Shown: positions 798 to 11,866 of the stretch, piece by piece
Numbering within the stretch: the first letter of the stretch is position 1
Layout: the number at the start of each line of letters is the position of its first letter
DNA from: Candidatus Woesearchaeota archaeon
GTDB lineage: Archaea; Nanobdellota; Nanobdellia; Woesearchaeales; UBA10216
Direction: 5' to 3'
Assembly (NCBI GenBank): GCA_013331515.1
Contig: DUGG01000073.1
Location: forward strand, 1 to 22,995
Length of the DNA stretch: 22,995 nucleotides
Made by a program: the position numbers and the translations under genes
The notes under the pieces: model-generated
The model's database searches: none
Seen by the model: the letters and a program-made list of their open reading frames with translations, nothing else
Told to the model about the DNA's origin: nothing

Positions 798-808
798 ATA
801 TTTATAAA
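798..808. promoter_or_regulatory. Divergent TATA box between acpS and the initiator tRNA gene
   Basis: The sequence ATATTTATAAA contains the palindrome TTTATAAA (801-808), centred at 804.5. The first base of the mature tRNA (833) is 28.5 bp downstream, the normal archaeal TATA-to-start distance, so the tRNA precursor probably has almost no leader. Being palindromic, the same box could also serve acpS on the other strand. Confidence 0.6.
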
Positions 809-847
809 CAGGTCCAAGTTTGTCAATAGTATAGCGGGGTAGGGCAG

Positions 848-879
848 AGGGTAGTAGCTTTCTGCTATTAACCGCCTAA
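848..879 (+). other. tRNA intron 1 (D-loop, after position 15), 32 nt
   Basis: Excision joins A846-G847 to C880-C881, giving the standard archaeal initiator D-loop. GGGC (842-845) pairs with GCCT (874-877), flanked by 3-nt bulges AG|A (846-848) and AA|C (878-880), each cut after the second base. An inner hairpin (849-858 with 864-873) has a 5-nt loop. The outer helix is weak, so this is a relaxed motif. Confidence 0.75.
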
Positions 880-895
880 CCAGGAGTGCCCGGTG

Positions 896-919
896 TAGCA
901 GAGACCTGCTGCTTCGGAA
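896..919 (+). other. tRNA intron 2 (position 29/30), 24 nt
   Basis: This is a good bulge-helix-bulge. The central helix is C890-C891-G892-G893 with T914-C915-G916-G917. The bulges are TG|T (894-896) and AA|G (918-920). The inner stem AGCAG (897-901) pairs with CTGCT (909-913). Outer pairs G921-C889 and C922-G888 complete the motif. Excision restores the 5-bp anticodon stem GTGGG/CCCAC. Confidence 0.8.
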
Positions 920-927
920 GGCTCATA

Positions 928-945
928 ACCACTTTTGGTTGGGAG
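928..945 (+). other. tRNA intron 3 (canonical position 37/38), 18 nt
   Basis: The central helix pairs loop bases C922-T923-C924-A925 with T940-G941-G942-G943. The bulges are TA|A (926-928) and AG|A (944-946). Outer pairs are G921-C947 and G920-C948. The inner stem is only C929-C930 with G937-G938. This is the usual archaeal intron site and a very short intron. Confidence 0.75.
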
Positions 946-953
946 ACCCACAG

Positions 954-984
954 AATGTGGACGCGCGAGTTTCCACATGTTTAA
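954..984 (+). other. tRNA intron 4 (variable loop, 45/46), 31 nt
   Basis: A strong 7-bp hairpin, AATGTGGA-type (955-961 with 972-978), fills the intron. Excision between G953|A954 and A984|G985 yields the canonical variable loop AGGTC. The central helix has only two clear pairs (C951-G979, A950-T980), so the junction could shift by a base or two. This is the least certain of the five. Confidence 0.65.
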
Positions 985-998
985 GTCGGAAGTTCAAA

Positions 999-1030
999 GT
1001 TTGGAGTACGCTTTGTACCCCGAGAGAAAG
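999..1030 (+). other. tRNA intron 5 (T-loop, 59/60), 32 nt
   Basis: The outer helix is the T-stem GGAAG/CTTCC (988-992, 1032-1036). The bulges are AA|G (997-999) and AG|T (1029-1031). Central helix pairs are T993-A1028, T994-A1027 and C995-G1026, plus one A-A mismatch. The inner stem runs from 1000 to 1024, ending in GTAC (1006-1009) with GTAC (1015-1018). Excision restores the T-loop TTCAAAT. Confidence 0.8.
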
Positions 1031-1044
1031 TCTTCCCCCCGCTA

Positions 1045-1054
1045 TTATTTTTTT
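1045..1054 (+). terminator. T-rich terminator of the tRNA gene
   Basis: Right after the discriminator base comes TTATTTTTTT, ending in seven T residues. This is typical of archaeal intrinsic termination. Confidence 0.55.
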
Positions 1055-9358: not shown

Positions 9359-11866
9359 ATGTTAGCCTACAAGAAGCTTTTTGACGATTTATTTGAGGAA
9401 ACCGGCAAGGTAGTGGTTGGCCAGCAGGAAATGGTCACTCAGGTACTCTCCGCAATGCTGGCTGATGGCAACGCCCTCCTTGAGGGCTACCCAGGCCTGG
9501 CTAAGACGCTTGCCGTCCGGACCCTGGCCAGGCTCATGGACCTGCGCTTCAGCAGGATTCAGAACACCCCTGACCTGATGCCTTCCGACATAACCGGCAC
9601 ATACGTGCTTGAGGAGCAGAATGGGAAGCGCGAGTTCAAGTTCCACCCTGGCCCGATATTTGCCAATATCGTTTTGGCAGATGAGATAAACAGGGCTACG
9701 CCAAAGACCCAATCAGCCATGCTCGAGGCGATGCAGGAAAAGCAGGTAACGGTAGGCAACACGACCTACAAGCTTGAGCCCCCATTCTTCGTACTGGCGA
9801 CGCAGAACCCAATTGAGCAGGAGGGAAGCTTATCTCTTGACCAGCATGTTTTTGTTAATGGAGAGCTAAAAACCGGCAAGGAACTGCTGGAACTTGCCAA
9901 AGAGTGCTGCATTCTGGAAGATGCCAAAGGCATAAGGCTTTACGATATAAAAGCATGGACGCTTTCGCTAAACCCAAATGGCAGGCTGGAAAAGGGCAGC
10001 TGCTTGCTTTACACCCTGCCTTATAAAAATGAGCTGATGGAAATAACAACTAAAACAGGCAAAAAGCTGGCTGTTACGAAGAACCATCCTTTCCTCGTTA
10101 ATGAGAACGGGGCTATTTTGTGGAAGAAGGCTGAAGAACTCACCAAGCAGGATTATATTATTAATCCTGCAAAGGTAACCTTAAACGAGCCACGGAAAGT
10201 AATGACGCATGCAGAAGCCATTTCAAGGATGAATCAAAAGCCGATTCCCAAAGAGATATTGTTTGACACGGATTTTGCTTTTTGGATAGCCTTCATACTT
10301 TCTGATGGCTACATAGGAGAAAAGTGTGTGGCTGCTGTACAAAAGAACTATCCTGAAGCTCTCGATAGGTTCATAGCCATATCCAGGAAATATGGATTTA
10401 AAACTGGCGTTTCTTCATCAAAAACTGATGGTTGCAGGACTGCCACGATTTACTCAAAACCTCTCGTTGAGTATCTGCGAATAAGGTTCTGCGTGACCGG
10501 AGGGAGAGATAAAGAAATTCCCTCATGGTTTTTAAGCTTCCCTGAGGAAATGAACAGGGAATTCCTCAAAACATTCATATCCCTTGAGAGTTCGCTCAGA
10601 GATAACAGCGTGGTGTTCACACAAAAAAGTGCCGATAACGCCAGCATGATTTCATACATGCTTCTTCGCGAAGGAATACTTTTGTGGATCAGACATGATG
10701 GCAGAATCTTTAGAATGAAAATACAAGGAAAAGATTTTGCCAACTACATCAAACAAGTCGGCTGGGTATGTGATGACAAGCTGAAAAACCTTGATTTGGA
10801 GAGGCAAACAGAATCAAGTTTTAGAGTTGTGCCTGTTGACAGAAAAAGAGTTCTCAGGCTGGTTGAACTTTTGGGGTTCAACAGCTTCCGCACATTAAAG
10901 AACAGAACGGACATAACAGCAAGAGACTGGTATGGAAGCTACAGAGGCATAAAAGGTGGCGAGACTGTCATGAGCGTAGACTCACTAAAACAGTTTGTAA
11001 ATGACACCAGAAGAGAACTGGAGATTCGAAAACAGCCATTCTTTTCTGAAAATTTAGATAACAATCCAAGACTTTTTGCTGCCAGCATAGGCATCCCAAT
11101 GACTGAGATTTCCAAAAGTCTTGCCATATCGAAAAACCAGGTTTGGCAACTTTACACAAGCGAAAATTCTGCCCAGGCCGTACAGATAAAAGGCCATATG
11201 AAAGAGCAATACAAACTGTGCATTGCAGAGGCCGAAAGCCTTCTGGTTCATTTTGAAGGCTTATTAAGCGAAGATGTATTTTATGACAGAGTGAAAAGCA
11301 TAAATTACAAGAATACTGAAGGACTGGCGTTTGGTTTGACGGTGCCGGGATTGCAAAACTACCTGGCAGGTTTCGGCGGCTGCGGCATAAACCACAACAC
11401 ATATCCCTTGCCTGAAGCACAGGCAGACAGGTTCCTGCTTAAGGTAAAAGTAACCTACCCGACTTATGACGAGGAAATGGAGATTGTCAAACGCTACGCC
11501 AGCGAAGGCGGGGAGAGGCGGCTGAAGGTTGTGATGAGCAAGGAGCAGCTCCTTGACCTCCAGGCGCTGACAAGGCAAGTCCCGATAAGCTCTGACCTGA
11601 AGCAGTTCATAGTCAAGCTCATGAACGAGACAAGGGACAGGAAAGAGATAATTGAGTACGGCGCCTCGCCAAGGGCATCCATAGGGCTTGTCATGTCCTC
11701 AAAGGCCCGGGCGCTCATATCAGGCAGGAACCATGTGAGCATGGAAGACATCAGGGCAATGGCCTACCCTGTTCTGAGGCACCGCATAATCCTCAACTTT
11801 GAGGCTGAAAGGAAGGGCCTGACTTCAGACGGCGCGATAAAGATTCTTCTAGATAAGGTCAAATGA
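9359..11866 (+). CDS. MoxR-family AAA+ ATPase precursor containing an intein
   Basis: The precursor has 835 residues. Extein part 1 (1-156) has Walker A GYPGLAKT (43-50), Walker B VLADEIN (105-111) and the sensor-1 stretch LATQN (146-150). Extein part 2 resumes with [14 protein letters not shown] and ends with the usual MoxR lid region. Joined, the exteins make a 311-residue MoxR, the normal family length. The 524-residue insert between EQEG and TYPLP is a full intein. MoxR ATPases act as chaperones that insert metals or help assemble protein complexes, working with DUF58 and VWA partners; all are encoded around it. The start at 9359 has GAGGT 6 nt upstream. The 3' end overlaps a frame with ATG 11863, but the real DUF58 start is probably further on. 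Confidence 0.93.
9827..11398 (+). mobile_element. Intein (524 residues) with LAGLIDADG-type homing endonuclease, inside moxR
   Basis: The splicing ends are Ser1 ([12 protein letters not shown]) and a terminal His-Asn (GGCGINHN), followed by extein Thr. Block B is intact: [10 protein letters not shown], with Thr84 and His87 of the intein. Block F/G reads [15 protein letters not shown] then GINHN. Two degenerate LAGLIDADG helices are visible: [14 protein letters not shown] (acid Asp160 of the intein) and [14 protein letters not shown] (a possible acidic Glu). A helix-turn-helix-like stretch ([19 protein letters not shown]) lies near the endonuclease C-terminus. Splicing should be class 1 with Ser at position 1 and Thr at +1. 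The DNA is visibly richer in A than the flanking moxR exteins, which fits a separately acquired element. Confidence 0.92.

Follow-up and report, generated by a model that had tools for sequence, protein, structure and literature searches.

An initiator tRNA-Met gene with five probable bulge-helix-bulge introns in a Woesearchaeota-like archaeon

The locus and its gene structure

The DNA analyzed here, referred to as the window, is a stretch of 22,995 nucleotides that forms contig 27 of an archaeal genome (G000 in our labeling of genomes, contigs, and loci as G, C, and L), which measures 1.0 Mb in 106 contigs and is 68% complete. Positions 833..1044 of its plus strand hold an archaeal initiator tRNA-Met gene of 212 nt in which six exons alternate with five introns, as checked at all ten boundaries. 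The introns are 32, 24, 18, 31, and 32 nt long and together make up 137 of the 212 nt (65%). By a manual count in standard tRNA numbering, they lie at 15/16, 29/30, 37/38 (the canonical site), 45/46, and 59/60. The parts of the locus are as follows.

801..808, plus strand: TATA box TTTATAAA, 25 nt before the 5' end of the tRNA, a putative archaeal promoter
833..847, plus strand: exon 1, tRNA positions 1-15
848..879, plus strand: intron 1, 32 nt, at 15/16; central helix GGGC:GCCT, 4/4 pairs
880..895, plus strand: exon 2, tRNA positions 16-29
896..919, plus strand: intron 2, 24 nt, at 29/30, a site that covaries; central helix CCGG:TCGG, 4/4 pairs
920..927, plus strand: exon 3, tRNA positions 30-37, with the anticodon CAT inside
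928..945, plus strand: intron 3, 18 nt, at the canonical 37/38; central helix CTCA:TGGG, 4/4 pairs
946..953, plus strand: exon 4, tRNA positions 38-45
954..984, plus strand: intron 4, 31 nt, at 45/46; central helix CCAC:GTTT, only 2/4 pairs
985..998, plus strand: exon 5, tRNA positions 46-59
999..1030, plus strand: intron 5, 32 nt, at 59/60; central helix TTCA:AGAA, 3/4 pairs; outer helix formed by the T stem, 5 bp
1031..1044, plus strand: exon 6, tRNA positions 60-73
1045..1054, plus strand: T-rich stretch 3' of the gene, by its sequence a possible terminator

When the exons are joined, they give 75 nt that fold into a cloverleaf (minimum free energy −35.2 kcal/mol) with 21/21 of the standard stem pairs. 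ARAGORN reads this joined form over its full length as tRNA-Met(cat), a cloverleaf with the anticodon CAT. Archaeal initiators are distinguished by an A1:U72 pair and by three G:C pairs closing the anticodon loop; both can be read in the joined sequence, the latter at 29-31:39-41, together with the loop CTCATAA. An earlier note on this DNA had proposed five introns at these coordinates and an initiator identity for the gene. The boundaries hold exactly, as judged from the joined exons and from relatives, and the identity is borne out by the stem pairs and the ARAGORN assignment. A split or permuted tRNA gene is ruled out, since the exons follow one another in their regular order on the same strand, all six within 212 nt. 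Among the loci listed, the promoter box lies upstream of 12/12.

The best named relatives of the RNase HII of the host are in Woesearchaeota assemblies (73 and 67% identity), which on sequence makes the host a Woesearchaeota-like archaeon (DPANN). Elsewhere in the window, at 9359-11866, is a reading frame of 835 aa for what we take to be a MoxR-like ATPase, with an apparent insertion in mid-frame that, from the translation, resembles what we assume to be an intein.

Intron presence and absence in relatives

Judged from sequence comparison, the strongest evidence for the five-intron structure comes from relatives, in which a 241-nt query recovered the locus and spliced alignment provided the structures. 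The same five introns are found in G007, of the same genus, and all five are found by a hand-made parse in G012, of another genus in the same family. Intron 5 is missing from G001, introns 1 and 5 are missing from G002 and G005 (same genus), and G006 (same genus) has intron 1 only. Introns 1 and 5 are the only ones in G010, while G045 has zero introns and is continuous through the five junctions. Each intron of the window is cleanly absent in at least one relative of the same genus (intron 1 in G002, introns 2-4 in G006, and intron 5 in G001). For all five, removal of the intron restores the tRNA and intron-less relatives read straight through. Intron 3 is identical across G000, G007, G001, G002, and G005, while the other introns vary.

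A survey of the order started from an exon-1 pattern, which matched 154 of 287 genomes and by its nature misses genes with an altered or interrupted first exon. From among the matches listed, with a contig-edge match in G131 skipped, 160 loci were examined and 8 were dropped as not being confident initiators (L040, L043, L044, L048, L131, L155, L214, and L233). Removal of 6 repeats from the remaining 152 left 146 distinct confident initiator genes, of which 56, 38, 21, 17, 10, and 4 have zero, one, two, three, four, and five introns, respectively. Two loci were re-parsed by hand: L022, whose five-intron count is that of the hand parse (sequence score 89.6 vs 93.1, 21 vs 19 pairs), and L024 (102.0 vs 102.5, 21 vs 20 pairs). 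The four five-intron genes are those of G000, G007, G012, and G078, which rules out five introns as a peculiarity of the host genome. The gene of G078, which belongs to a different family, has a site set partly different from that of the window, so that either high intron numbers evolved repeatedly or the turnover of sites is fast.

A profile-based spliced aligner scored the locus at 91.8, compared with at most 29.1 in the rest of the window and at most 34.3 in 20 dinucleotide shuffles (both strands). The profile was trained on initiators of the clade including the window gene, which makes this score partly circular; the presence and absence of introns in relatives is an independent test and is weighted more. 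It is hardly credible that the locus consists of chance tRNA-like pieces or reflects an assembly error. The aligner does chain 7-10 introns in shuffled DNA too, but those solutions stay far below the score of the locus, which recurs in independently assembled genomes from several genera, among which introns come and go cleanly.

Detection by tRNA finders and the search for a second initiator

When ARAGORN was applied to the window, nothing was found, with introns allowed too, and no Rfam family reached its gathering score in the window. The prediction that standard finders would miss the gene was therefore correct for both of those tried. In relatives, ARAGORN with introns allowed placed the gene ends in 49/56 of the intron-less initiator genes compared with 0/4 of the five-intron genes, and for this reason tRNA counts in the group may be too low. 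A general tRNA model gives 14 matches in G028, which is one contig rated 100% complete, and 36 in G135 (96%), and introns that hide tRNAs may explain these small numbers. The same model gives 18 matches in the genome of the host (L001-L018), five of which carry insertions of ~15-59 nt in the anticodon loop.

The search for another initiator gene that the earlier note called for was made with the spliced 75-nt sequence as the query. It revealed no intact second copy in G000 (68% complete), G007 (92%), G012 (87%), or G078 (93%), and its matches were confined to fragments of the initiator gene itself plus two short stretches elsewhere, in G000:C25 and G078:C34. As the genome of the host is 68% complete, another initiator could be unassembled, and the locus might then be a decaying copy beside an ordinary initiator in the unassembled third of the genome. 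We consider this very unlikely, since the stem pairs are all intact, the five-intron gene is kept in G007 and G012, and no intact second copy was found in the three relatives with 87-93% completeness.

Splice motifs and covariation

Introns 1, 2, and 3 have the 4-bp central helix between two 3-nt bulges that hold the cut sites, which characterizes the bulge-helix-bulge (BHB) motif, while introns 4 and 5, with two and three central pairs out of four, represent relaxed motifs at best. Within a set of 185 distinct introns, counted before the hand re-parse of L022 and L024, a complete 4-bp central helix is present in 114, compared with 2.8% of 1480 shifted controls, and a helix of at least 3 bp is present in 167, compared with 23% of the same controls. 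Covariation is also observed. In the inner helix at 29/30, each of pairs 1-4 is standard in 30/30 distinct introns and occurs as four to six pair types, and pair 5 is standard in 29/30; at 53/54, which is not a site of the window gene, 5/5 pairs are standard in 15/15 introns (kinship is ignored in these counts). At 37/38, the register used gives a poorly conserved inner helix, which counts against a strict motif.

Folding of the naked precursor failed as proof of the motifs, with the minimum free energy structure (−90.7) preferring other pairings. Forcing one motif costs 2.3 to 18.5 kcal/mol and forcing the four compatible motifs together costs 20.4, although the cost for intron 3 is overstated because the inner pair that was forced was a poor one. 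The motifs gain no support from the naked-RNA fold, and the case for them rests on relatives and covariation. In the same fold, nucleotides 930-943 of intron 3 pair with 875-888, which comprise the end of intron 1 and part of the D-loop exon.

The gene might work with one cut displaced by a nucleotide, most likely at intron 4, or intron 4 might be removed by another route; its central helix has two of four pairs in the window, and 5/8 of the distinct introns at 45/46 likewise have only 2 central pairs. This is improbable in our judgment, since the site as drawn gives the variable region AGGTC that is found in G006 and G045, both of which are without intron 4, and the same boundary in G005 and G012 fits a CCAC:GTGG helix (parses read by hand).

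A different origin for the insertions can also be considered, as self-splicing or mobile elements such as a group I intron or the remains of a transposon. Group I introns have a large catalytic RNA core. Their occurrence in archaea has been reported, according to the available text of PMC6125680, but the insertions here are only 18-32 nt, their ends fit BHB motifs, and the window is devoid of Rfam families at gathering scores. Size and the lack of an Rfam match rule out a group I intron, and we attach next to no probability to self-splicing or mobile elements in general.

Proposed expression and splicing

It is highly probable that the locus at 833..1044 works as the initiator tRNA-Met gene of its Woesearchaeota-like host, probably as the only one, and that its five introns are archaeal BHB introns. 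We infer how the gene is transcribed, how its precursor is cut and joined in the cell, and in which order the introns are removed. Transcription from the TATA promoter (801-808) would give a precursor of ~212 nt. All ten of its junctions would be cut by the tRNA splicing endonuclease, EndA, and RtcB would make the five joins that link the six exons. In the structure drawn here, no nucleotide is shared among the motifs of introns 1, 2, 4, and 5. The motif of intron 3 uses the anticodon stem as its outer helix, overlaps the outer helix of intron 2, and would also run into the central helix of intron 4 if that helix were complete. Because of these overlaps and the involvement of the anticodon stem, intron 3 may be the last to be removed, once this stem can form.

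Genes for both EndA and RtcB are present in the genome of the host. Across 29 genomes, a search with PF01974 (EndA) found matches in 27, with a single match in 26 and two partial matches in G013, and none in G003 or G009. The EndA of the host, at G000:C30, is a reading frame of 195 aa and is the only EndA gene found there. Among solved structures, its best matches are 3iey_A, 5x89_A, and 1a79_A, the first of which is the catalytic chain of a heteromeric enzyme; we take 3iey to be the Nanoarchaeum enzyme and 1a79 to be the enzyme of M. jannaschii. In alignment, the EndA of the host is without an insertion that is present in 2cv8, a loop tied to relaxed motifs and presumably the crenarchaeal loop. 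The available text of PMC6379350, and also that of PMC12397907, describe relaxed introns as being efficiently removed only by the (alpha-beta)2 and epsilon2 types of EndA, with special loops accompanying this ability. Set against this rule, a single EndA without the loop implies that the motifs are mostly strict enough, or that a divergent second subunit was missed, or that the rule fails in this group. EndA could have a second subunit, as one divergent partner gene could escape the PF01974 search. In G000, G007, and G012 (loci L094, L102, and L086), the neighbor of endA on the opposite strand looks tRNase Z-like, an identification that we assume.

The joining of tRNA exons is attributed to the RNA ligase RtcB. 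The rtcB gene (in the genome of the host at G000:C34, L234/L266; also L267-L275) is itself interrupted in this family by BHB-type introns of 29-32 nt at two sites. Site A (HEGY^GFPIGG) is occupied in 8/13 genomes (G000, G002, G003, G005, G007, G013, G016, and G017) and site B (GGIGY^DVNCG) in 5/8 of the genomes covered there (G002, G007, G008, G014, and G016). In a register giving a Tyr codon, 13/13 of these introns form a central helix of 4 bp and an outer helix of 2 bp, where only registers yielding Tyr or Phe were scored; 16 stretches had been fetched, and L276, L279, and L280 were dropped as they were without the motif. RtcB may be needed for making its own mRNA. In archaea, the available text of PMC7714728 (2020) names cbf5 as the only mRNA known to have an additional BHB intron, beside the 5' UTR site reported there. 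In G004:C15, G015:C13, and G044:C87, the RtcB match splits near residue 50 within a long open frame of 913-1001 aa, in a manner that is intein-like.

Comparison with known systems

Introns of this kind are familiar from Thermoproteales, in which multi-intron tRNA genes likewise carry short BHB introns, located at the canonical position and at several non-canonical ones within one tRNA, as described in the available parts of PMC4033280, PMC8450103, and PMC4090602. Sites observed here such as 29/30, 45/46, and 59/60 appear on the published list of intron sites in the accessible text of PMC4090602. The difference is in number, tRNA, and host. Two papers put the most introns in an archaeal tRNA gene at three; one of them, PMC4033280 (2014), gives this maximum for Thermoproteales in its available text, and no more than three are described in the corresponding parts of PMC8450103 and PMC4090602, whereas the gene described here has five, in an initiator tRNA and in a DPANN host. 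In the Asgard groups Atabeyarchaeia and Freyarchaeia, most tRNA genes have introns, often at non-canonical sites, and over half have several, according to the portion of PMC11291895 (2024) that is available; this is another lineage than that of the window host, and genes with at least four introns are possible there.

Other systems show more limited similarity. The initiator tRNA gene of Thermofilum pendens is also disrupted, but is permuted, in contrast with the colinear gene with introns found here (PMC4090602, available text). Three-intron tRNA genes, with non-canonical sites included, occur in red algae and algal nucleomorphs; these are eukaryotic, with no more than three introns in the sections available from PMC4090602 and PMC9602550. 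Searches within the open-licence literature, also on DPANN, Micrarchaeota, and Woesearchaeota, found no report of an archaeal tRNA gene with four or five introns. As far as these searches reach within that literature, the introns are of a familiar kind, but we found no report of them in this number, this lineage, or this tRNA. The claim in the earlier note that five introns would be exceptional stands in comparison with the literature, but not in the sense of an isolated case, given the other three five-intron genes and the 10/146 genes with four introns in the survey.

Biological significance

The window gene and its relatives raise the intron count per archaeal tRNA gene from the published three to five, and do so in the tRNA that starts proteins. 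Furthermore, within this clade a single tRNA naturally carries anything from zero to five introns, inserted at corresponding sites, and so intron gain and loss, together with the order of splicing, become directly testable. A more tentative proposal, which we regard as possible but doubtful, is that the splicing system of the clade may control both itself and the start of translation. In this view, maturation of the sole initiator tRNA would call for ten cuts and five joins, and the rtcB mRNA introns would need EndA and RtcB as well, so that splicing capacity would set the supply of initiator tRNA. All of the cleavage would be carried out by an EndA encoded by a single gene and without the loop considered necessary for relaxed motifs. 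If true, the rule that links the type of enzyme to the diversity of introns would fail in this clade.
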